Positions 28,389 through 63,400 of a DNA stretch of 64,000 nt are shown here, piece after piece. Origin of the DNA: Pristionchus mayeri (taxonomy: Eukaryota; Nematoda; Chromadorea; Rhabditida; Neodiplogasteridae); contig BTRK01000002.1 of the NCBI GenBank assembly GCA_036245805.1, positions 40,902,661 through 40,966,660 of the forward strand, written 5' to 3'. Under the pieces are notes generated by a model. The model did no database searches, was not told the DNA's origin, and saw nothing but the letters and a program-made list of their open reading frames with translations. Both the position numbers and the translations under genes were made by a program. Position 1 is the first letter of the stretch, and every line of letters starts with the position of its first letter.

Positions 28389-29650
28389 CTTATCAGGAAG
28401 CTTTATCATGAGTCAATGGAGGTGGCCGAGAACATTTTCAAAAAAGTTGTTCCCGATTTACTTCGTATAATAGTGACAGAATGTTCCAGAGACAAGAATT
28501 CGAAAAATATAGGTCATTGGTCCCAGAGCCGGCTTTTAGGAAATTTCCGGTTTTGCACCTGGCTATACTGTATCTTAGCTCCCAGATGAGCTACAGAGGT
28601 GGCATTGGGCTCAAAATGTGCGGAAAATTATTTCCAGAAACTTGTATGTTCAGTACAAGACGATTGGACAATGAGTAAGAATCATCTGAATGAAAAACGA
28701 CTTTTCACATCAACATATAAATATTCACACTATCAAGCGGTGTCGTGCTACAGATTTTTAATGCAGATTATGAAAGAACATACATGTGTACATGAAATAA
28801 AAATATAAAGAGCAAAATTGAAGATAGGTGAAATTGGCATTTTCCACTCAAACATGGCTTACTGAAGAAAAAGTCGAAAAAGTCGTAAATTTTAATTTTG
28901 TTCTTTCTTTATCAAAATTTTCCAAATTATTATTATGATAACATATAGGAGGAAAATACTATTTTGGAAGTCCATCTTGCGATTATATACTCAAAATTAA
29001 ATTATTTGTTAAAAATACCCTATTTCAAGTACAATTTGCCATTTTGAGCATATAATAGCAAGATGGCTTTCCAAAATAGTATTTTCCACCTGTCTGTTAT
29101 CCCAATAACACTTTGAAAAAATTTGATGAAGAAAGAACAAAAATATAATTTACCACTTTTTCGACTTTTTCTTCAGTACACCATGCTTGAGTGGAAAATG
29201 CCAATTTCACCTATCTTCAATTTTGCTTTTTATATTTTTATTTCATGTGCACATGTATGTTCTTTCATAATCTGCATTAAAAATCTGTAGCACGACACCG
29301 CTTGATAGTGTGAATATTTATATGTTGATGTGAAAAGTCGTTTTTCATTCAGATGATTCTTAATCATTGTCCAATCGTCTTGCACTAAACATAAAAGTTT
29401 CTGGAAATAATTTCCCGCACATTTTGAGCCCAATGCCACCTCTGTAGCTCATCTGGGAGCTAAGATACATTATAGCCAGGTCCAAAACCAGAAATTTCCT
29501 AAAAGCCGGCTCTGGGACCAATGACCTATATTTTTCGAATTCTTGTCTCTGGAACATTATGTCACTATTATACGAAGTAAATCAGGAACAACTTTTTTGA
29601 GAATGTTCCCGAGGTGCCTGCTTTTCATCCACTGACTCGTGATACACGTG
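28389..29650. repeat. 1.26 kb TTAA-bounded foldback
   Basis: Two arms of ~600 bases meet near 29020. Both ends are bounded by TTAA (28385-28388 and 29651-29654). The right tip CACGTGTATCACGAGTCA (complement strand) and much of the arm, including a shared GCTCAAAATGTGCGGAAAAT stretch, match the TIRs of the adjoining 29655-37222 element. It looks like a non-autonomous relative. Mirror-image open frames in the arms are not genes. Confidence 0.8.
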
Positions 29651-30120
29651 TTAACACAGGTATCACGAGTCAGCGGAGGTGGGCGGGAACATTTTCCAAA
29701 AATTTGTCACCGTTTTCGTCTATATTTGGGTGGGAAAATACCCAGAAGAGATGCTTTCGAAAAATATAGGTCATTTGTCCCAGAACCGGCTTTTAGGAAA
29801 TTTCCGGCTTTGCACTTGGCTACGCTGTATTTCAGCTTCCAGACAAGCTACGGAGTTGGGAAAAATATCATTCAATCATTCATATTTATAGGAAAAATAT
29901 TGGCGAAGAAAATATCGGTGCCTTCAAACTCGATATGCCGAGGCAAACGTAGACATATGATAAATATACTGAAAAACCCAAAGTTCGATCAAGATTTAAA
30001 AATTGATTTTTCCAACCTCAATTTCTCTGATGTTTGTACATTAATAAATCCGCTCGTTGAATAATACATCCAGAATGAAAAGGGATATTTTGTAGTAGAT
30101 ACCGGGTAGAGTTGATAAAT

Positions 30121-30552
30121 AGTTAAATTGGCAGGTTCATGGTTTTGCATCTTTTGAAATTGTCACTCAATTATGCTTCCACGTGAGTGTCAAAACTAAT
30201 AAAAATCTGTTTTCAGCTGAAATTTAGTGGTTACTTATCGGAATTGTGCATCTAAAGTCATGAAAATATCGTTTTAGTCAGAAAATTCAATTATAACGTC
30301 ATTTGAATGGGCATAAAAAATTGATTTTTTTTCGATATTGAAATTTGTGATATGTTTATAAGCGTTTTGATTTAGAGATTTCTCTACGATTCCGACTGAA
30401 AAGATATTTTCATGATTTTAGATGCATAATTCCGATGTGTAACCGCTAAATTTCAGAATAAAACATATTTGTATTAGTTTTGACACTCCCGTGGAAGCAT
30501 ATTTGAGTGAAAATTTCAAGAGAGGCAAAACAATGAATCTCCCAATTTGACT
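30121..30552. repeat. 432-base foldback nested in the left TIR
   Basis: Begins AGTTAAATTGGCAGG and ends with its near complement CCCAATTTGACTG. It interrupts sequence that is continuous in the right TIR (around 36500). It therefore inserted after the TIRs were formed. Confidence 0.8.
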
Positions 30553-30796
30553 GTATATAAAAAGGGTCAAACTAATTTGTCTAAGAGATAACATCAGATT
30601 GGTGAAACTCATATTTTTCTTTGATTAGAAGTGCTCAAAAATAGAATTTTGTCGCAAGTTTGGAAAATATGTTCTTTGAAGCGTATATTGCATATTAATT
30701 TTTTTCGTTTCTGCAATTTCAATGTTTTCATTCTTCAAGACTTGAATATACGTTTTGAATGCGGTACCATAAATTATTTATCGTTCATATTCACAA

Positions 30797-33270
30797 TTAG
30801 TTAACGATGTACATTGATTTGGGAGTGAGCTTCGTAACGTGGGGATGATCTACTCCAATTAAGAGGATAGAATTACTTCCTCGCGCAAGTATCTCATAAG
30901 TTGCGAGGGTCTCGGGCATATATTTCTTGATCTTGATAATTCGATCCTCTAGCTCGTTCATGAGTGCATCACTACACATAAGTTCATTCGCACCCTTCGC
31001 AACCACTCCGAGTAAATGTTCCGAACCATTATCAAAAGAATCTGCAAATAATTATTAAATTTTTGTGGTTGAAAAATTGCAAACCTTTATCAAAATCAAT
31101 CGTATTGATTTGAATTGTATTAGCAATTGACTGGGAACAATTTAAGAATAAAATCAACGTGTTTCCGGATCCTCCTATTTCCTTACACTTTGAGAGTAAT
31201 TTCTCAAGATTCTAAACTGCACATTGGATTCGTATTCTGATATAGTTCACCTCTATGTGATTCCCGGAAATGATGGCGAAATCGGGGACGATTTCTAACT
31301 GATCAACTGTTTCAATACCATTGGTGCTGTTGGCACAATCAATTTCCTGCAGCTTCTTGACGAGCGCACTCACATAATGATTTTTTAGTACAAATTTTTC
31401 CAGTTTTAGCTTCCTGGATATATTCGATTAGGTTGCGACTCGATCACTCTCGTCCTCCCCCCTGCACGTTTTTCAAGTTGAAAATCGTGCAATTTACTCT
31501 CTCACTCCGAATGATTCGAATTAGAAATAGTACTCACTCAATATTTAGAATCATTTTCTGCACAGAATTGGAGTCATCGAGATAGATCATTGCTGCCAGT
31601 TGTTCGTTACTCAACTCCCTTTCGTTTTTCTTCCGGCGGCATTGAGCAAAGATTGGATGCTCAATTGCAGTCAATTGCTGAATTTTCGGGATAATGAAGG
31701 AGGTGAATGAAGAAATGTATTACCCTCCAACCTTCGACCACACATAATGCACCTGTAGTTAATCTCTCTATGATACTTTGAGTCACAAGTGGCGATCGAT
31801 AGAAACTTCCATGTGCGTCAAGCATGAATCTCCAAACGAATAAATTGTATACACATTTTTTTCAACATCAAGTGTTCGTATTAGTTTTTCATTTCTTATA
31901 ATTTTTTTAAAAACATTTTAGCGAACCTCAAATTCTTGAAATCCCTGCGATCGTTGTGGTAGTATGCCGATTGCTTACACTCTCTCTCTTTGGAAGAATC
32001 CACCTTAATTCGAAAGCAAGGAGTGACTATTAGGATATACTATAATTACCTTTATTATATTTCCATTGTTGAATTTATCCATTAAGCTTTGCATCAAGAG
32101 AAACAGAGGAGTAGACATTTTACAAATGGCGACAATCGACGTCAGCTAACAAATTTGAGTATAGAAATAAGTACTCCAAAATACCGGGCATGTCGGCTCT
32201 ATTACAAGGGCGTATGCTCTAATAGACTTGGATGTAATTGAATTACGTTCCTTTACCGTGAGACTTTCTCCGAGAATCGAGCGAACAATTGTGGCCTGCG
32301 TTAAAATATAATAAAGGTATTTAAAAAAGGACAAATACCGTTTGGATAGTTGTGAGAGGTAATCTCGAATCTTTGTTATTGACATCCGACGTCACGACAA
32401 GTCGTTCTTCTTGTGTAAGTTGCAAGTATACTTTGCAAGTCACCACCCTTTCTTGTTGCGGATGACGAATTTCCTCATAGTATCTGCAATTTGCTATATT
32501 GCTGAAAATGAAGGCTAACATCGTTCACTTTTGAAGAGCTGCGAGTCGAATATTGCCGTCCAAAGTGGTATACTTGCCATTTGAAAGCTCTACGATAGGC
32601 ACGAAACGGGACAACTAAAGTAAATACCACATCGAAATTAATAAAATAAATTGGGAAATTGATCGAAAGAAATTAATGCCTCGATTGTTCGGGAGCGCAT
32701 CTTATGGAGAAAGTTTTCAACTTCATTTTCGTCAATTGATCACCGAATTTCTCCCAAAGAGAGATCATTTAGATGTATAACTTCTCGTTCTGATGTTGTT
32801 GATTCGATTTATTTAATTTCAATAAGCAAACCTTTCTTTAGTTTATCACGCACGATCTCATGATACACGGGAAGGGCTGGAAAATCAACAGCCTCGATAG
32901 TATTCCTCCTCAACATTATATAAATTGAAGTTGGAATTTTTTTTAAATACCTAATCGATGTCCTGCATTTTTTTGCACTTCGCATAACGTCAACTTCTTC
33001 TATTAACGAACTTTCGTCTTCCATTATTGAACCGTCATGTTCAATGTCAATCTCCTGAGTTAAAATAATCAGTAAGTGCTTGCAATCTGATTAGTACAGT
33101 TTCAGCAGGTCGTTTATTCAATTGACGCACGTAATCAGTGGACTCTTGGTATCCTAAATTTTCTGCAAGTCTCTGAACTATTGGAAATGAAACATACCCA
33201 ATTCAACGGAGGTTTCTCTATCAGCACGATTGAATAAGTCTACCAATTCATTATTCGGCTCTTCAGCCAT
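30797..33270 (-). CDS. ParB-like-domain protein encoded by the TTAA element
   Basis: ATG at 33270 (MAEEPNNELVDLF), stop at 30797. At least fourteen exons keep phase. After an acidic N-terminus, exons 32789-32680 and 32614-32529 read V-I-H-L-N-D-L-S-L-G-E-I-R and V-P-I-V-E-L-S-N-G-K-Y-T-T-L-D-G-N-I-R-L-A-A-L. This is the layout of the ParB/sulfiredoxin N-terminal fold, with D-G-N-x-R-x-x-A matching the ParB nucleotide-binding G-E-R-R type box. About 400 further residues follow with no domain I recognise (Q-L-T-A-I-E-H-P-I-F, E-I-V-P-D-F-A-I-I-S-G-N-H). Oddities: an in-frame TGA at 32740-32742, a GC donor after 32680, and only 27 bases between 32529 and 32501. Role unknown; DNA binding is an inference. 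Confidence 0.6.
31429..31515. repeat. Inverted single copy of the 35.2 kb tandem unit
   Basis: CGATCACTCTCGTCC...CACGTTTTTCAAG...ACTCTCTCACTCCGAATGATTC is the complement of one unit of the 106-base repeat at 35155-35465. It lies in an intron of the ParB-like gene. Confidence 0.8.
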
Positions 33271-33839
33271 TGCAAATCGTGAGAGAAAAATCAAATTCGA
33301 TCGAATTTGTTGAACGCATCACAGCCTGAAAGAATCTTGAATAAAGTCGTTGTTATTCCTATTCCTTACGAATAAGCCATTAATTTGCATTTCAGGATAC
33401 ATTTCGTTCAAATATGCCATTACGTGGGATCTTTCAGAAACAGACATCAACATAAGAACATAAGAGGCACTGATAAAATATTAAATGCTAACACAATTTA
33501 GCTTTGTAAAGCTACGTCAAACCTTTCAGCGAAACACGAGTAGAGTGCCGATGTATTAATGTCGAATAATTGCTTCCCATATTCAGTACATTTGACAACA
33601 AGCGCGACCGGAGGTCCAACAACAGTAATCTGAATAAAGGTGGATACCTATGCAAATATAAAGTTAAACATAATAATAAAAAAAATAACAAAAACAAACC
33701 ATGCTGAACGTTGGAATTGCATCTAATTCGCTTGTTCTCCACATTTCAGTATATTCAACAGTTTCACCATCGAATAACACATATTTTTCATCCTAAAAGC
33801 GAACCTTAAAAAAATATTACAAAAACTAGAACGAACCAT
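33263..33839 (-). CDS. Unknown protein upstream of the ParB-like gene
   Basis: A start ATG at 33839-33837 is followed at once by a GTTCGT donor. The next exon (from 33792) gives D-E-K-Y-V-L-F-D-G-E-T-V-E-Y, then V-S-T-F-I-Q-I-T-V-V-G-P-P-V-A-L-V-V, then S-A-S-Y-V-L-M-L-M-S-V-S-E-R, and A-V-M-R-S-T-N-S-I-E-F-D ending TGA at 33263. All junctions hold phase, giving about 125 residues. Alternating hydrophobic residues suggest a compact beta-rich fold; no family recognised. Its stop overlaps the start of the ParB-like gene by 8 bases, suggesting one transcript or trans-spliced operon. The single-codon first exon is the weakest part. Confidence 0.5.
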
Positions 33840-34014
33840 TTGAGAGACCGCCCGCGACCAGTGACCGAGGCGAGAGTGAAGGAGAGAGTGAATAATAAAA
33901 GTAAAGTGCACAATTTTCATATTCCGATTTATTCAAAATGACCTCTCACTTTCTCACGTCTCACTCTCTCTCTCTCTCATTTATTATCTCGCCATTCCCT
34001 CTTCGCGATCAGTC

Positions 34015-36178
34015 GATGCGGCGATCCAGAAGTTCTTCTCCGAGTTGGAGGCGCATCTGTCTTCCGGTTTCGAGGTCTACCGTTTTGGATGTCATCAGAG
34101 AAGACTTGCGCAGTAACTCCACCAAATTTGCATTCGGTGAAATCTTTGGAAAGACTTGTTGCCCTCTGCAATGTCTATCTCACCTTACAAAGTAAGTCAA
34201 TTGTTATATTTATCCAATCTAAAAAAGTTTTCAGGTTGGATGTTACTGCTGCACGACTAGCCGCGAAGGGAAATTATGAAACAACTCGTAATCACATTCT
34301 CTCGGTCATTCAATGCTGCATAAGAAAAACTGCTGGAGAGCGATGTGAGGGCGCTTAATTCCATATGGGCTTCAGATTCTTCGTTATACTTTCAATTAAG
34401 GTTTTGAATTAAACTGGTGCGGAATCAATCTATGCAGCCAGGCTTTCTGTTGGATCTATATGATTTCGGAGAATAGGTTTTTTTTAATTTGATAAAAAAA
34501 TTATTGTTCCAGTCTCTCAACAATGAAAGAGTCAGTACTCAATGGTGAAATTCGGTCAGTACATGGAAACTTATTCAAGAAGAAATTGGATACAAAAACA
34601 ACTTCGGATGAAGCTAACGTGAATTATTGGCTCCATGAACATGGCCAATTCCACCCCGTTACTGGAAAAATATTCATCGATTCTCGCCTCCCAGCAAGGT
34701 ATATACAACTTATTGTTTTAAATTAAAATTTAAAAAAATACAAATTCCTTTGAAGAGTAATCGCTCATCAAAGTGACGTTTCATCTGTCTTTGAAGAGAA
34801 TGATAAAGTTGCCTTCCACATTATTTATTCAGGTATTTTGATTAATTACGTATTTCAAAAATTGTTTGACATTCAGGTAGACGGAAGTAAGTGTAACAAA
34901 AACAGAGCGATGCTTCTCTTTCTGGCATATTTGGTGGATCGAGGTCTATTCTCTAAGGTATTATTTCATAATATAACTAGTTAATACATATATTGTTGAG
35001 ATATCACTCATGTTTCTTCCTGTTGGACATAGTCATGCGCAGCTGACAGATTTTTCGGAGTGATCAGGAAGAAGTTAAACCAATCTGATCAATTCATGCC
35101 TTCAGGTAAATGTTTACTAGTTGTGATATAGAGAATTGCACAATTTTCAACAACAGTGAAACATAATCAAATCAATTCGAATCACTCGGAGTGAGAGTGT
35201 AAATTGCACGATTTTCAACTTGAAAAACGTGCAGGGGGGAGGGGAGAGTGATCGAGTCTCAGTGAAACCTAATCAAATCAATTCGAATCATTCGGAGTGA
35301 GAGAGTAAATTGCACGATTTTCAACTTGAAAAACGTGCAGCGGGGAGGGGAGAGTGATCGAGTCTGAGTGAAACCTAATCAAATCAATTCGAATCACTCG
35401 GAGTGAGAGAGTAAATTGCACGATTTTCAACTTGAAAAACGTGCAGGGAGGAGGGGAGTGATAGTATGTGAAATCAGAATTTAACGAGTGAATGTCCAGT
35501 CTAATATTAATTTCAGAATTAACTTCGGTTATCTCTGAATGCAGCGGCGTGCGGTCTATTCGGCATGACCGTATCAATTTCAACTTTAAGGAATGGCTGG
35601 AATCTCAATCCGGGAAAGCTCTAGATGGGATTTTCAGCTACATGTTCTATGAGTTTGAAAAAGAAAGAGGCAATGACAAATGTCTTTTGTTACTAATCTT
35701 GACTATTTCAGGTAAAACGATTGTTTCTTGTAGGCCAAAAGCAAGTAAACCTGATAATGAAATTCGCAAGGAATTACCGAAAATTATCGGTGAACCAAAG
35801 TGGAGTATCAGGCAAGCACATTTCTTTTTTAAGTATAAGCCTTAACTATGCATTATAGATCTACCGATACTAAAGCTGTGGATCGTCTTATAGAAGTTGC
35901 AGACGGTGAATTGCCTGCTGGAGTAATTTCGGAATGGAATATGACACGAACTAGAATATCGACCCTTCCCGAACCAGGTGATTCAGTTTCCAACATGTAT
36001 GTACACTATCAAGATCCCTTAAGTTCAATGGTCAGACTTCCTCGACCAACTTCTTTCAAAAAAGTCGGATAGAGTTGGAAGAAGAGAAGAAATTGCTGCT
36101 CAAGACTCTCAGAAATTGGCCGCATTTGTCATATCTAAGAAAAACAGGAAGCGTAAAGCAGCCGAAATTACCGATTAA
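34015..36178 (+). CDS. Unknown gene of the TTAA element, frame-broken
   Basis: Exons read plus-strand: ~34015-34194, 34236-~34345, 34510-34700, ~34756-34959 (V-I-A-H-Q-S-D...V-D-G-S-K-C-N-K-N-R-A-M-L-L-F), 35033-35105 (S-C-A-A-D-R-F-F-G-V-I), 35516-35811 (E-L-T-S-V-I-S-E-C-S-G...F-N-F-K-E-W-L-E), 35859-35980, and a basic tail R-K-R-K-A-A-E-I-T-D to TAA 36178. One intron appears to use a GC donor (35812). The frame is inconsistent at 34110, between the second and third exons, and near 36065 where an A6 run breaks the tail. No known domain recognised, so whether it is the transposase is open. A 106-base tandem repeat fills the intron at 35106-35515. Confidence 0.45.
35155..35465. repeat. 106-base tandem repeat, ~3 copies
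   Basis: Units start at 35179, 35285 and 35391 with GAATCA(C/T)TCGGAGTGAGAG. Each contains TTGCACGATTTTCAACTTG with its own small palindrome. It occupies an intron of the plus-strand gene of the TTAA element. Confidence 0.9.
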
Positions 36179-37547
36179 TTACGTACCCGATTGATGCATT
36201 GTTTTTCGTATTTGTTTTCGTATATGTTTACGTGTCAGATTTATGGTTTACAACAAACATGATAAATGTTATACTTTAATAAATACATCCAAATCGCATT
36301 TGCAAAAACAACAATACAACAATAAATACAACATAATACTATTTTCTTGAAAATTTCATAATTTTTTTAAATGTCATGATTTATTCCAAAACAAGGAATG
36401 TACAAAATTGAGATTTCAGTGCATTTTCGATTTGCACAAGTTGAGTTTCATCAAACTGATGTTTTCTGTAGGACAAATTAGTTTGACCCTTTTTATATCG
36501 ACTCTACTCGGTATCTACTATAAATATCCCTTTTCAATCTGGATGTATTATTCAACGAGCGGATTTATTAATACACAAACTTGAGAGAAATTGAGGTTGG
36601 AAAAATCAATTTTTAAATCTTGATCGAACTTTGGGTTTTTCAGCATAAACTTACTCATCTGTCCCATAAAAATCTTAAATTATATATATTTGTTACTTTA
36701 AAGCAAACTACGGTGACATTGATTGAGTTCATTCGGAATATTTATCATATGTCTACGTTTGTCTCGGCATATCGAGTTTGAAGGCATCGATATTTCCTTC
36801 GCCAATATTTTTCATATAAATATGAATGATTGTTCTTTCATATTATGCAATAAAAATCCATTGAAACTTTCCTGCGTGATGGTTAAAACAATTATTTTCT
36901 GATTGTGAATTCAGTTTTGCGGAAATAGAATTTGTATTTGTTGTTCCCGTGAAAAGTTTTCAACATAAAATTTGCAGGAAATAATTTTCCGCACATTTTG
37001 AGCGCTTCCCACCTCTGTAGCATGTCTGGAAGCTGAAATAGAGCGTAGCCAGGTGCAAAACCGGAAATTTCCTAAAAGCCGGTTCTGGGACAAATGACCT
37101 GTATTTTTCGAAAGCATCTCTCCTGGGTATTCTCCCACCCAAATATGGGCGAAAACTGTGACAAATTTTTGGAAAATGTTCCCGAGAGGTCCTTTTTCAT
37201 CCATTGACTCGTGATACACGTGTTAAGTGAAAACAAACACATCAACGGAAACATAAAATTGTAAATAGCCAACTATATTTAAAAAAAACACATAAGGAGC
37301 CGGATATCTTCTGATACCCACTCGCAGTGGACTTCGTCCATAGTCCCCACGCTACAGTTCGTAGACTACGAGAAGGGATCACCCACAATAGTTACCTCGT
37401 TTCAATTTCAGTATTCGCACCAACATTGTACAATGTTCGAAATTACGTTATATATTGCGTTAATTAACTCTAATTAAAACATCAAAGTATTTGAAAAAAA
37501 AGAAAACGATTGATGGGATGGAGTATTATCATTGCTATACATTTACA

Positions 37548-38890: not shown

Positions 38891-41734
38891 ATGCCGACAA
38901 AAAAGCCAACGTGTAAGAAGAACGCAAGTAAGGCCGAAAGAGCGATGACAAGAGAGGATATCACAACTCTTGATGATACCAGGGACACATCACAAGCTGG
39001 AGCAGACAATAGATTTGGAATAATGGTTAGGAATCTCTACACTTTTTTCGAAATAATGAGCAATCGTCTGACTCTCTTCAGTTTGCACGCTCTCTAGCCG
39101 GTCAGAGATACGAGAGAGCGTGCAAACTGAAGAGAGTCAGACCATTGCTCGAAATAATTCTACGTACTTTCTCGTCAGTCGCCAGAGAGTTTGTATAGTA
39201 ACTATTTGCCAATATATCCCCATTCTTGACATATATCGTGTACCGTGTCAATATTTAAACAGTATAATCTGATACTCACAGGACCTCATTTCTCCGCTTC
39301 CCGGTGATTGTATCCTGAACATCGTTCACTATCTTTCATCGTAAGTTACCAACTACTTCCTACTAGTAATTACAACTGCACATTGGGGATGGTAATCATG
39401 ATTGGGTCACGCGGGTAAATAGGGCAGGCGAATGGTATGTCTGGGAAAGGAAGTAAAGAAAGTAATACCCTTAACCAGGTTAGATAAGGGTGAGATGGTG
39501 AGCGCATAGTAGTTACAATGAAACCACGCTTAGTTGCTAGACCACCTCCCAGCAAACGGTGCTTCGTTGCGCGTTTGCCCGCTTCCAGTAGTGTTATCCT
39601 TCGAGATCGGTCTCTAAGTTGGAATGTTTATATGCCTTTATCATAATAGCATCATTTATCTATGCCCGTGGCGCGACGAAACAATGAGAAAATATACTTA
39701 AAGAGTGCAGGTGGGGGACCTCCAAAATCATTGCAAATTACTTTATATAATTCCTACTTTCAGTCTCGATATCTGCCGTTTGATGTTTGCTAGTCGGAGG
39801 TTCTACAAAATATTGAACACACCGTGCACTAATGCAATGTGGACAGGAAACAATGTATGGAACGGAGAAGAAATTATCATTTATCAGGTCTCTTATAATC
39901 GGCTTGAAACCTTGGCATGTAATTACTTTTAAGATAACAAACCGATACGCCTTTCGTCTTCTATGTAGGCTTCCTGGACAAACGGCATATAGCATGAAGG
40001 GTAAGAATTGCATTTATGAACTGGAAATCGTAGATGCCCGTAATGAAATATATTTTGAAGGCAGAAAAATAAAGAACAAGAAATATGGAACTATGGTTTG
40101 TAAATTTGTTTTCTTCCGAATACAAAACATATGGCGGTTCTCGAGGTCCCATGCCTTTACAATTACAGAATCCATCACTGCCTGCAAGGTCTCGCCATAG
40201 TCAACCATTGCCCAGGCGTTTCTACGATGAGATCGACCAGTTTCTCCGGATTCGAGACTTTTGTGAACTGTCCCTGATTAATGTCTGTTTAGAGTTCAAT
40301 TATCAAATCAAAAAGTAATCAATTAATTTAATCCTTACATCTTAGACATTGCGAAATCGGAGGATGTTTGTTCCAAAAAAAATTGCAAACCGTATTTTTA
40401 TTCAGTAATTTATAGCTAAAAATCGACACTACAATGATCACGAGACTATCTAATGCGTCTAAAGGATTTGAAATACGCCTAGTTGGAATTGAAGAGTCGA
40501 CCGGCGACCCAGCCAATAAAGATTGGATCGAAGGGTAATATTTTTTTGCAAATTCCAATACATTATGATCGAAAATTCTTGAATTGCAAAGTTTAAAAAT
40601 AAAAAAAAATTGATGACGTTTTTTATAGATTGACGAAAATGATCGTTTCGAATGGTGTTGTAAGATTTTGGATCTCAAAATCGCCACAACTCATAGAAGC
40701 CGGTCTAATAAATGAAAAATTCATTCGCAAAGTTCACGGATCGGCTCTTTTCAATATGGTAATCCTATGCGGCTGGAACACAAATTATGTGAGTACAAAA
40801 ATCGTAATTCGAAGACATTTCGTGAAAGTGAACAGGGGTTTTCAGTGATTATTCGTTAACAAAGCCTCGTTAGAGTTTTGAGTGGATGTTGGTCCAAATA
40901 CCAACGAACATGGCCAACTTCATTTCGAAAACTGCAGAAATGCCGCTTCTATCCTTCGAAATCGATTCTTCCTCTACTAATGGGGTACACATGCTGCATT
41001 ATTGTGCCTTTCATGACGCTTCAGGCTATTTGGATCCCAAAGCTTCTAATCGTGATGTATTTATTCTCTTGATGTTTGACATCCGATCTGTTACAAGATT
41101 GTTCTTTGCAGTATTGATGAAATTTGACCGATCTATGAATGGGAACTTCTTCCTGCGAAATTTTGATGAAACTGATAATGAGATTATTTTTTTTCATTTC
41201 AGATGTTCATGGATACAATCGGGTCTAAGATGAATGTTGCTTCTTGGATGGTTGTAATTGATCGTCTCCTTACACAGATGGAGATTTCAGATGAAGTCAT
41301 ACTTAGAGGCTGCGATTACACGGTCAGTAATGAGAGCAGTACTCATAACAAATGACGTCATTATGCTGCTCAACGTACAATACTACTCACGGAATAGGAA
41401 ATCATTTTTTTCTGCAAATAATTCCGTTCCACGAGTACTATTGTGATCATGCTAATTGTTTATGTTCGAACTACTCGCAAAGTGTGCAATACTTCAGAAA
41501 TTAAAATACTTTCAGTACGATCGCATTATGGATGGTAATGGCCTGCATCGGATTACAAATAAAAGCAATGGAGTCGCAGCGAGATTTCTGATGAGCGAGA
41601 AACTTGTTGATCCCACTCAGGGAACAAGAATGTATTATGCTGATATTGTATGCACTTCACCTAATCTGTCGCATAGACTTCCACGCACAATTGAATATGG
41701 AGAAGTGAAAATGCCAATAACGACCGTTTTCTAA
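38891..41734 (+). CDS. F-box protein
   Basis: Exon 1 (38891-39025) starts MPTKKPTCKKNASKAERAM, basic and polar. Exon 2 (~39281-39341) and exon 3 (39764-39887) join as L-P-G-D-C-I-L-N-I-V-H-Y-L-S-S-L-D-I-C-R-L and S-R-R-F-Y-K...A-M-W, a clear F-box. Later exons read R-Y-A-F-R-L-L-C-R-L, then ~40095-40315, D-T-T-M-I-T-R-L-S-N (~40420-40538), T-K-M-I-V-S-N-G-V-V-R-F-W-I, M-F-M-D-T-I-G-S-K-M-N-V (~41203-41320), and Y-D-R-I-M-D-G-N-G-L to TAA 41734. F-box proteins recruit substrates to SCF ubiquitin ligases. Phase at the exons near 40095-40320 is unresolved, so the middle may be mis-modelled or damaged. Intron 1 holds a hairpin repeat. Confidence 0.6.
39058..39150. repeat. 93-base near-perfect hairpin
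   Basis: GAGCAATCGTCTGACTCTCT...GCACGCTCTCT and its complement, loop around CCGGTCAGAGATA. Located in intron 1 of the F-box gene; closest relative at 63146-63239. Confidence 0.9.
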
Positions 41735-57236: not shown

Positions 57237-58472
57237 TTGGGGTGTCCGGAAAGTTCGTATAATTTTTTGTTTTTATTTTTTATTCAATGCTTTACAATTC
57301 TCAGTGACCAATGTATGCCCCCTTCTTTCTCACTACCCCCCCCCCCCCAGCGATTGGGCAGGGTCTCGATTCCTCTCTTCCAGAATGCGGGTTTCTTCGA
57401 GACCGCCCAGTTCACGAAAGCCCTCACAACTTCATCTCGATTCTTGAACTTCTTTCCTTTGCAGAAGTCAGAGAGAGAGAGCGGAAGCAGTGGTAGTCGC
57501 ATGGGGAGAGATCCGGGGAATACGGTGGATGGGGAATCCTCTCGATCTTCAGCTCGTCCATTTTCTTCTGGGTCATCTTCGCTCGATGTGGGCGAGCATT
57601 GTCCATCAGAAGAAGAATTTTGCCCTGGTTCAAGAGTCTGGGAGGGACTCTGATCGCGACATCTTCCAGTTGTTCAGAGAAGAGGTCGGCATTGATGCTG
57701 GTGCCAGGGGCGAGGATCTCCCAGTAGATGGGACAGAGCACTGAGAAGAAGAAGCAGAGGAGTTCCTTTTTTCCGTGCTCTTCCTTCTTCGGGACGGGCG
57801 TGGGCTTCTCATCTGCATCCACCCATTGCAGTCTCCTCACAGGGTTATCGTACGTGATCCACTTCTCATCTGTAGCGATGATGGAATTGACCCATCGAAG
57901 ATTGGATCTACGATGGAGTAATTCCCGACAGTCTTGAACACGATTTTTCAGCTGTTCGGGGGAGAGGTCATGGGGAATCACTTGTGGGAGTTTCGCTTCT
58001 TCCCAGATCGATGGAGGATATCGGACACCGTTGATCTGGGAGTACCAGTATCCTTGTTCAACTCACGCACACTGGCCATGGGCTTGCGCTTCAGTGTGAG
58101 GAGAACGAGAGGCTGATCGAGGGAGGGAGGGCGTCCAGAGCGGGGTTGATCATCGAGACCAAACTCCCCTTTCTTGAAGCGGGAGAACCACTTATAGCAG
58201 AAGGGTATGGAGGGGGCGTCAGCTTCTTCCGACTGGGCCAGGGCAGAGTGGGCCTCCTTCACGGATCGGCCAAGACGGTAGTAATGAAGTAAAACTGCTC
58301 GGAGGTAGAGATGGGAGTCCATCACAAGAATCAATGTAGCAACTAGGAGACTGATTAAATCCTCTCACTACTCAACGTCAGAATGATGCAATACATTGTT
58401 GACACAATCACTGCATTTGATCGCGAACTGATTTTTTTCCGAAGCATTATACGAACTTTCCGGACACCCCAA
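57237..58472 (-). mobile_element. Mariner (Tc1/mariner) element, 1236 bases
   Basis: Inverted ends of 27 bases starting TTGGGGTGTCCGGAAAGTTC are flanked by the TA duplication at 57235-57236 and 58473-58474. Size and ends are typical of mariner. Inserted in the right arm of a foldback. A C12 run near 57350 suggests later slippage. Confidence 0.95.
57284..58334 (-). pseudogene. Mariner transposase, two frameshifts
   Basis: The N-terminal part (from 58334) has helix-turn-helix features and the linker W-F-S-R-F-K-K-G-E-F...D-D-Q-P-R-S-G-R-P. The catalytic part has T-D-E-K-W-I-T-Y-D-N, L-L-M-D-N-A-R-P-H and Y-S-P-D-L-S-P-C-D-Y, with 34 residues between the second and third Asp (DD34D, the mariner signature). 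A one-base loss at about 57980 separates the halves, and CT-repeat slippage near 57480 shifts the frame before the K-G-K-K-F-K-N-R-D-E-V block. The C-terminus is degraded. Therefore inactive, though the catalytic residues remain. Confidence 0.9.
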
Positions 58473-61673: not shown

Positions 61674-63400
61674 TTATAATTGGCCATTTTTGGGGCCCAT
61701 CTTCTGTTCCACGCCTGCTAACGAGATATTCCCGAGAGCCGAAGGGTCGCTCTCGATGTACTGAATTATGGTATTAGAGTAGAGTAGTGATTGGAGGTGT
61801 ATCGGTGTGGAGGGGCTATTGCCTACGTAACGTGCACGGACTCGATACGTTGGCAGAAGTGTTTCCTTTTTCTCCCATCGTTGCATATGAAGGCGAGAGA
61901 CCGGCGAGTGAACTGGAGAAATTGAGAGACTCAGACAATAGTTAAACTGACGTTGTGTATGATTTTGATTAGCTGTTGGGAAGTGGATCTCCAGGGGAGG
62001 TCAAGGCCCAGATGTGCTCCTACCGCGTAAGCCTGAATAGCACGACTCTATTCTTTGATGCCATACGATCTCGTCCGCATTGAGAGCGAGAAAGAGTGGA
62101 GAAAGAGGGAGGTAGATAGAGGGGGAGAGGAGGAGAAGGAAGAGGAAGGGGAAGGGAGAATGAATATGAGGTAGATAGAGGGGGTGAGGAGGAGAAGGAA
62201 TATGAGGTAGATAGTGGGGGAGGGGAGGAGAAGGAAGATGAGGAGAAGAAAGAGGAGGTTGATAGAGGGGGAGAGGAGGAGAAGGAGGAGAAGGAGAAGG
62301 AAGATGAGGTAGATAGAGAGGGAGAGGAGGTAGATAGAGAGGGAGAGGAGGAGAAGGAAGAGGAGGTAGATAGAGGGGGAGAGGAGGAGAAGCAAGAGGA
62401 GGAGAAGGAAGAGGAGGTAGATAGAGGGGGAGAGGAGGAGAAGGAAGATGAGGAGAAGAAAGAGGAGGTTGATAGAGGGGGAGAGGAGGAGAAGGAGGAG
62501 AAGGAGGAGAAGGAGAAGGAAGATGAGGTAGATAGAGAGGGAGAGGAGGTAGATAGAGAGGGAGAGGAGGAGAAGGAAGAGGGGGAGAGGGGGGTGTTAC
62601 CTGTGCTATGGTCAATTCGGAGAGAGGACGGGCGCCAGCTGGCGTCCTTTTGTACGTGGGCCAGCGGATCCTATGATCCACGGCCCCCGGGAAGGTCTCG
62701 TTGAACCACTGCAAGGGGATACGGTAGATATGATACTGTAGGTAGCGTGAACAGTAAAGGAACTGAGGAAAGACACTGCATGCTACAGGGAGTGGGCGAT
62801 TATTGACTTGATGGAGTTTACCTGATAATATTGTTCATATGTATACATGAGTGGTAAAATAGGTGGGAAGGGAGAGAGAGGCGCATGGAAAGAGAGTGAA
62901 TTGGTAGGATAGGATACAAGAGCAATGTTCACGCTCTCTCCATAGCCCACACTATCTCGCCCACTCTGATCGACGAGTGAGTGTGTGGTTTGGAGAGAGT
63001 CAGACGATTCCTCGGATGCAAGGATCTCACGATGTGCTTGACGGTGCGTCTCGCTCTGGCCTTGATGCTCGTCCCCTCTCTGAGGACCTCCTTCTGCCTG
63101 GCGGTACGCTATAAAAAGAGGGATATGAATAGGGATATGAAATATGAGCAATGGTCTGACTCTCCTTCTTTTACACACTATCTCGTCGGCTAGAGAAAGC
63201 GAGAGAGCGTGCAAATTGAAGAGAGTCAGACGATTACTCTGAAATGTATAGAGTGTAGAACCAATATTTCGGGGGCCATTTACCTGTGATAGTGAACGAG
63301 GAATGTTGGGCGTGAGTAGAATACGATCCGACTCTACTGAAGGGCTTCTGCTCTGAAAAAACCTCGATTGTGCGCAGGAGCAAATGCGTCTGAGAGCCAT
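61674..63400 (-). CDS. Basic protein, five exons, family unknown
   Basis: Exons 63400-63284, 63108-63031, 62762-62601, 62032-61952 and 61760-61674 join in phase 0 (174 residues from ATG 63400). Content: R-S-P-S-V-E-S-D-R-I-L-L-T-P-N-I-P; R-T-A-R-Q-K-E-V-L-R-E-G; F-L-Y-C-S-R-Y-L-Q-Y-H-I-Y-R-I-P-L-Q-W-F-N-E-T-F-P; A-Y-A-V-G-A-H-L-G-L-D-L-P-W; Y-I-E-S-D-P-S-A-L-G-N. If ATG 63400 is real, the Arg/Ser/Cys-rich start resembles a mitochondrial presequence. Alternatively a strong TTTTTTCAG inside exon 1 makes it an internal exon continuing the coiled-coil exons at 63675-64000. I cannot name the product. Introns hold two hairpins and a purine minisatellite. Confidence 0.6.
62100..62590. repeat. Purine-rich minisatellite
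   Basis: Nearly all A/G on the plus strand, built from GGAGAGGAGGAGAAGGAAGA and GGAGGTAGATAGAGG blocks in irregular higher-order repeats. It fills the intron between exons at 62601 and 62032. The opposite strand gives a long Pro/Leu/Ser open frame that is an artefact. Confidence 0.9.
62930..63013. repeat. Hairpin repeat, GAGAG family
   Basis: CACGCTCTCTCCATAGCCCA...CTGATCGACGAG...TGTGGTTTGGAGAGAGTCAG; in the intron after 63031 of the basic-protein gene. Confidence 0.7.
63146..63239. repeat. Hairpin repeat, GAGAG family
   Basis: GAGCAATGGTCTGACTCTCC...GAGAGAGCGTGCAAATTGAA; the same outer arms as the 39058 hairpin. In the first intron of the basic-protein gene. Confidence 0.8.

Follow-up and report, generated by a model that had tools for sequence, protein, structure and literature searches.

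Which mobile element explains a gene-bearing stretch of 7.6 kb in a nematode genome that has the letters TTAA at both of its edges? The stretch lies in DNA from Pristionchus mayeri (contig BTRK01000002.1, positions 40,902,661 to 40,966,660), of which all 64,000 nucleotides are referred to here as the window; plain positions are those of the window. An earlier note, made from the letters alone, had described one TTAA-flanked transposon with long terminal inverted repeats (TIRs) and three genes, one of them ParB-like, and had regarded it as little described or new. Matching tips around a GTATCACGAGTCA core at both ends, the TTAA letters at both edges and a divergent layout of the reading frames are indeed present. 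The 7.6 kb are, however, two nested elements, and the ends that had been named belong to the outer repeat, not to the coding transposon. The description as a little-described transposon with a ParB-like gene can be kept for the inner element, with other ends and another target than those named. It is highly probable that this inner element is a cut-and-paste transposon of about 5.9 kb, with 53 bp TIRs, an ATAT target-site duplication, a DUF7869 transposase and a ParB-like gene, nested in a repeat that duplicates TA.

A coding transposon nested in a gene-less repeat

The decisive result comes from the empty site. The flanks of the inner segment were joined into a query of 240 bases, with ATAT counted once, which gave at least 42 matches; at least 39 of these cross the junction, one being the window's own opposite arm, and the counts are lower bounds, as 40 of 182 candidates were scored. 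Outside the window, at least 38 matches cross the junction at 77-91% identity, corresponding by count to about 25 loci, since a palindromic outer copy can yield two matches. The flanks in the window match the query as halves only. Because uninterrupted outer repeats match the joined flanks at so many places, the arrangement is a nested insertion, a rare coding transposon inside a common gene-less repeat, and not one element.

The inner transposon, which is the coding element, spans 30559-36494 (5,936 bp), as delimited by the empty-site comparison and by tips common to other loci. It starts with AAAAAGGGTCAAACTAATTTGTC, ends with its complement and has ATAT on each side (30555-30558 and 36495-36498, + strand). 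Its insertion point separates the hairpin middle of the outer repeat from its right arm, so that a complete outer copy can be read in the window, running from the left arm through the hairpin middle and, beyond 5.9 kb of foreign DNA, into the right arm. An uninterrupted relative of this repeat is found on contig C1 (L071), and its length is restored when the window flanks are joined with ATAT counted once. Where the gene cassette has paralogues, their alignment with the window begins at the ATAT boundary and runs inward only, and their flanks differ. The inner transposon jumped into an unrelated repeat with long TIRs.

The inner TIRs are 53 bp long (left, 30559-30611, + strand; right, 36442-36494, - strand) and are identical at 47 of 53 positions. 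A pattern of the inner tips without flank finds 28 sites in the genome and none in the control, and the four bases before these tips are ATAT in 25 cases and ACAT or ATGT in three, so that all 28 carry ATAT or a one-base variant. Facing pairs of inner tips, 14 with the window's included, have equal 4-bp flanks in every case (13 ATAT, one ACAT); they lie 0.6-19 kb apart and are spread over all six large contigs. The inner element duplicates 4 bp, ATAT. A 2-bp TA duplication was considered for it and is disfavoured by the ACAT/ACAT pair and the 28 tips; the target sites in the outer repeat and in a long interspersed nuclear element (LINE, see below) are compatible with both TA and ATAT.

The outer element, which resembles a miniature inverted-repeat transposable element (MITE), occupies 29654-37223 and is split by the inner transposon, with TA at 29652-29653 and 37224-37225 as its flanks. 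The left arm (29654-30117, + strand) agrees with the right arm (36499-37223, - strand) at 428 of 461 aligned columns (93%), and the hairpin middle (30112-30558) has arms of 172 bp that are 85% complementary. L071 matches the right arm on each of its two sides, with 80-81% identity along about 732 bp, and the middle of L071 (about 440 bp) matches the hairpin middle at 71% over 449 columns. The long inverted ends of 0.8-1 kb that had been proposed are thus real as inverted arms, but the left one had been extended into the hairpin middle, and the right arm measures about 0.73 kb.

A search of the 291 Mb genome finds the 13-base core of the outer tips in 1022 forward and 1000 reverse exact copies, where the reversed control gives 0 and 2; the outer tips are therefore those of a high-copy family. 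Among 43 tips, position -8 is T in 41 and position -7 is A in 42, whereas the first letter of TTAA is T in just 18 and the last is A in just 21; this set comprises cores with up to one mismatch, omits the overlapping locus L006 as well as three tips that have two mismatches, is drawn almost wholly from the opening third of contig C1 and includes some near-duplicate copies. Since the TA positions are near-invariant and the letters outside vary freely, the target duplicated by the outer element is TA, and TTAA does not hold as the duplicated target for either pair of ends. The outer copies that were read from end to end measure 1.0-1.9 kb; no genes were seen in the copies read, and no search aimed at a coding outer copy was made. 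The TA duplication, the gene-less copies (among those read) and the high copy number are shared with MITEs of the Tc1/mariner type, from which the outer repeat differs by its arms of about 0.73 kb and its hairpin middle; it is MITE-like, with the duplication of that type. A second outer copy at 28403-29651 abuts the first on the left, with the TA common to both.

The two genes of the inner element

The plus-strand gene of the inner element (34016-36178, intron-containing, start approximate), in which no transposase core had been recognised before, matches Pfam PF25273 (DUF7869) at E 1e-18. The label DUF7869 stands for a domain of unknown function. With a cut-off of 26 bits, the scores are 68.1 for the window, 85.7 for L062 (plus the L063 exon) and 52.2 for L064, the latter two being the other coding copies; the queries were hand-spliced exon models, that of the window carrying an X at a frame shift. 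A pattern D...NK...VGHxH...D is present, in which the D, N-K, VGH-x-H and the later D are invariant in five sequences from two lineages. The exons with the second and third conserved D (VDGSKCNKN ... VGHSHA ... DRFFG, with an intron between) lie at 34877-35107 (+ strand), and a further conserved exon (ELTSVISECSGVRSIR...) at 35512-35711 (+ strand) has 65% identity over 52 amino acids to L063. In L062 and L064 three conserved aspartates are found, in S[LI]DDMSN, VDGSR and GHSHA..DRFF, the exon with the first of them (SLDDMSN/SIDDMSN) lying upstream in both. The differences between copies at codon positions 1/2/3 (15/9/30, 27/16/46 and 11/4/24) show a gene conserved as a protein. This protein would be a DDD transposase, putatively RNase H-like. 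In the window, the first-D exon was not found where it was expected (about 34756-34877; best match E 0.58), and the VGHSHA exon is frame-shifted near 35033-35045. Because of the missing exon and the frame shift, the copy in the window is probably dead and can no longer make an intact enzyme.

The second gene lies on the minus strand (30797-33830), with many short exons and an approximate start, and is possibly two genes. Three genes had been counted earlier; the reading frames are real, and two genes are the more likely number, as a single open frame of L062 (4984-4574) spans both minus-strand pieces of the window, weakly (22.7%, 97 amino acids, E 4e-4). ParB and ParB-like nuclease domains have a conserved G-x-x-R-x-x-A box behind a P-I-V strand. 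A pattern of this kind, PIVExxxGxxxxLDGNxRxAAL, is found in the window and in L062, and PIVE...VIDGCNRVRAL in P0001, a protein of Pristionchus fissidentatus. The ParB-like core lies at about 32336-32790 (- strand), with the motif PIVELSNGKYTTLDGNIRLAALQK at 32528-32599, which pairs with PIVEHREGRFILLDGNSRVAALKS in L062; in the window the gene is interrupted by an in-frame stop. In the protein database, the only relatives found outside this genome are two hypothetical P. fissidentatus proteins (P0001 and P0002), matched by a ParB-like profile at E 2.6e-26 and 8e-7, and the reading of these proteins supports the exon order. An alternative exon reading (EIRCAPEQSRH) was abandoned in the light of the L062 and P0001 alignments.

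The differences at codon positions 1/2/3 of the ParB-like gene are 103/71/163 and 152/86/196, in blocks that take in some intron ends. Third positions show roughly double the differences of second positions, so the protein was maintained while the element diverged. A ParB fold is suggested at the level of the motif; the ParB-fold protein of the earlier note thus stands as a ParB-like motif, with no ParBc match. Outside nematodes, four phage records (best E 0.6) were discarded, and pattern matches were 0 of 37 for viral contigs and 1 of 48 for prokaryote genomes, the one match being spurious, as it lies antisense within a frame that resembles a flagellar hook protein. The inner transposon would code on one strand for the transposase and on the other for a ParB-like DNA-binding accessory, which may bind the element's own DNA and assist transposition.

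Gene-bearing and gene-less members

Genes are found at three loci only, all on contig C2: the window, a second coding copy (L062/L063, C2:36.672-36.682 Mb) and L064. In protein searches of the genome, the transposase matches (11 of 11 and 12 of 12) fall at these three loci only, and so do all 15 ParB-like matches, the queries of this search including the EIRCAPEQSRH reading. The ParB-like gene is found solely beside the inner transposase (three of three loci), and both genes occur in the same arrangement at the three diverged loci, with about 34-90% protein identity exon by exon. Inner tips were mapped at both ends for the window and L062/L063, and at the left end for L064. The earlier note had looked to other copies with the same ends and gene set for support. 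For the outer unit this expectation failed, as its ends recur without genes in the copies read and the genes, where they are met again, have different ends; for the inner unit it was borne out, the same kind of ends occurring with both genes at two more loci.

The second coding copy lies inside LINE reverse-transcriptase sequence, and with ATAT taken once across its flanks the LINE frame would, in our reading, run ..GVPQGSAICPLLF-IIYINDL (FIIYINDL across the site). In place of its left part it has an inverted copy of the right end together with about 107 bp from the LINE beside it, apparently through recombination at satellite units with the break in the satellite; the inverted 1.1 kb right-end copy (L062, 1887-3029) is 99% identical. 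The window copy lacks the first-D exon and carries a frame shift and a stop, and in L064 an outer-type repeat breaks the element, with no gene match beyond. Direct protein searches found no undamaged coding copy in this assembly.

DNA of either gene region finds, besides the window, just a short tandem repeat in the genome. Six other members, L097 and L118 (read whole) and L030, L034, L011 and L042 (at least partly read), match the window, in the parts read, in TIR and/or satellite only, and the 53 bp TIR is common to the first five of them. These non-coding members may have been moved in trans. In the window, the satellite is a 106-bp tandem repeat of 2.9 copies according to Tandem Repeats Finder (TRF), in an intron of the transposase gene (35154-35471, + strand), and a lone inverted unit, 97-99% complementary to these units, lies in an intron of the ParB-like gene (31454-31522, - strand). 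A repeat related to the 106-bp unit is present in all six members, each of which was examined inside; four of the six were found through that repeat, and L097 holds about one unit. All five satellite loci found outside the window with gene-region DNA adjoin inner tips or lie between them, and the control loci L071, L117, L119 and L005 gave nothing below E 0.09 against the repeat. L064 has a stretch related to the unit (E 1e-6). In the corresponding intron of L062/L063, a 112-bp array of 18.7 units has no detectable similarity to the unit of the window, and the idea that this satellite marks every coding copy was therefore given up. The gene-less member L118 (C5:3358500-3364450) carries 110-bp arrays in opposite orientations (TRF: 8.9, 7.8 and 10.8 units) and is a transposon turned mostly satellite.

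More distant DUF7869 genes are present at C5:25071144/25073405 and C4:9670492; the same profile search found none in 14 control genomes. They share the DUF7869 domain and the D...NK / VGHTH...D pattern with the inner transposase. Their identity to the proteins of the inner element is just 24-27% in the aligned part, and they also differ in longer open frames and a guanine-plus-cytosine content of 47% against 37% in the inner element. The C5 pair is a tandem duplicate of this other lineage, 2.26 kb apart (L117, C5:25069500-25075500), with a further relative in L119.

Classification of the inner element

Several observations weigh against a DUF7869 and ParB-like transposon with ATAT ends. ATAT was itself part of the pattern from which the 14 facing pairs were picked, and three of these pairs lie inside longer palindromes (C3:33.64, C4:36.4 and C3:6.17 Mb). 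The flank-containing tip pattern with up to two mismatches gives 114 sites against 300 in the reversed control; because the control exceeds it, no copy number can be derived from this pattern. The DUF7869 queries found no relatives in the protein database, the profile found no matching structures in the PDB, and no ParB-like gene was found beside the distant DUF7869 genes. All three coding copies are damaged, so that activity cannot be deduced from them. The ParB-like protein has no match to the Pfam ParBc profile, and NCBIfam and PHROG gave weak or unnamed matches only. DUF6551 matches stay below cut-off (E 8.9e-4 for L062, 19.3 bits against 26.8; 0.01 for the window), with none in the P. fissidentatus proteins. 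The comparison with the SopB profile of plasmid F lands on the expected box at a non-significant E 0.34, the SopA control giving 0.24, and the best PDB match of the ParB-like profile has E 0.66.

The TTAA letters, the matching tips and the genes between long inverted arms gave one 7.6 kb transposon with three genes its appeal; with a target of TA instead of TTAA, at least 38 uninterrupted matches and cassette paralogues that stop at ATAT, such an element is now extremely improbable. Kolobok and piggyBac, which the earlier note had named as families to which the products might belong, are also cut-and-paste elements and duplicate TTAA according to the accessible text of PMC9587614. Both are excluded, as the duplications found here are TA (outer) and ATAT (inner), and the TTAA edge letters are coincidental. 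It is unlikely that both genes are captured passengers of a non-autonomous ATAT element moved by an unrelated transposase. Such a history would fit the six members that match the window in TIR and satellite only (in the parts read) and the confinement of the genes to three loci on one contig. It fits poorly with the shared arrangement at three diverged loci with about 34-90% exon identity, two of which have inner tips mapped on either side and the third on the left only, and with the three-aspartate layout of DUF7869 that is expected of a transposase.

If the DUF7869 protein is the transposase, the inner element may work as Sola transposons do, aided by a ParB-like accessory; on a comparison of published descriptions, we put membership in Sola, as a Sola1- or Sola2-like element, at about even chances. 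Sola2 has AT-rich 4-bp target-site duplications, ATAT among them, in the accessible part of PMC3627910, and the portions available of two further sources give a DDD transposase, a 4-bp duplication and TIRs of 11-1124 bp for Sola (PMC10741241) and a 4-bp duplication with 32-bp inverted repeats for a Salpingoeca Sola1 (PMC6875170). The AT-rich 4-bp duplication (ATAT/ACAT here), a DDD-type transposase (here putative), TIRs and, for most Sola, a size of 2-9 kb are common to both. As far as the accessible text of PMC12477816 goes, the 21.5 kb Ectocarpus Sola1 (Sola1-1_Ec32) has, on the strand opposite to its transposase, a ParB-like/methyltransferase gene whose product has been suggested to bind the element and modify it. 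The inner element shares the ParB-like gene in this position and differs in its 5.9 kb and in that no methyltransferase domain was found in its ParB-like gene; Pfam's lack of a known function for DUF7869 also speaks against Sola. A far more speculative scheme, which we hold to be very doubtful, makes DUF7869 transposons a two-protein lineage of their own. In it, the transposase would cut the AAAAAGGG ends, and the ParB-like partner might load on the tandem repeats inside the element, in the way that ParB of bacteria loads on parS clusters, and pair or mark the element. This would explain why non-coding members keep the TIRs and the repeat; the lack of detectable similarity between the 112-bp array of L062/L063 and the window's unit weighs on it.

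Should the DUF7869 transposon be confirmed, a family without a function in Pfam would gain a transposase role with defined ends and target site, and relatives elsewhere could be classified from these ends and target. In the open-licence literature, no publication on DUF7869 was found, which does not prove that none exists, and no report of ParB, transposase and TIRs in a nematode. Seemingly, a DNA transposon with a ParB-like accessory would then be present in an animal as well; the accessible part of PMC12477816 describes this for algae. The case further illustrates how one element nested in a repeat with long TIRs can mimic a new large transposon.

Elsewhere in the window, positions 39075-39135 (+ strand) match mir-8364 in Rfam at 69.8 bits, which we take to be a Pristionchus microRNA; together with the P. 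fissidentatus relatives of the ParB-like protein, this match points to a diplogastrid host. Open frames at 57427-58364 (- strand) resemble a mariner transposase, with the motif ATDEKWIT, and a low-complexity tandem repeat rich in purines lies at 62155-62587.

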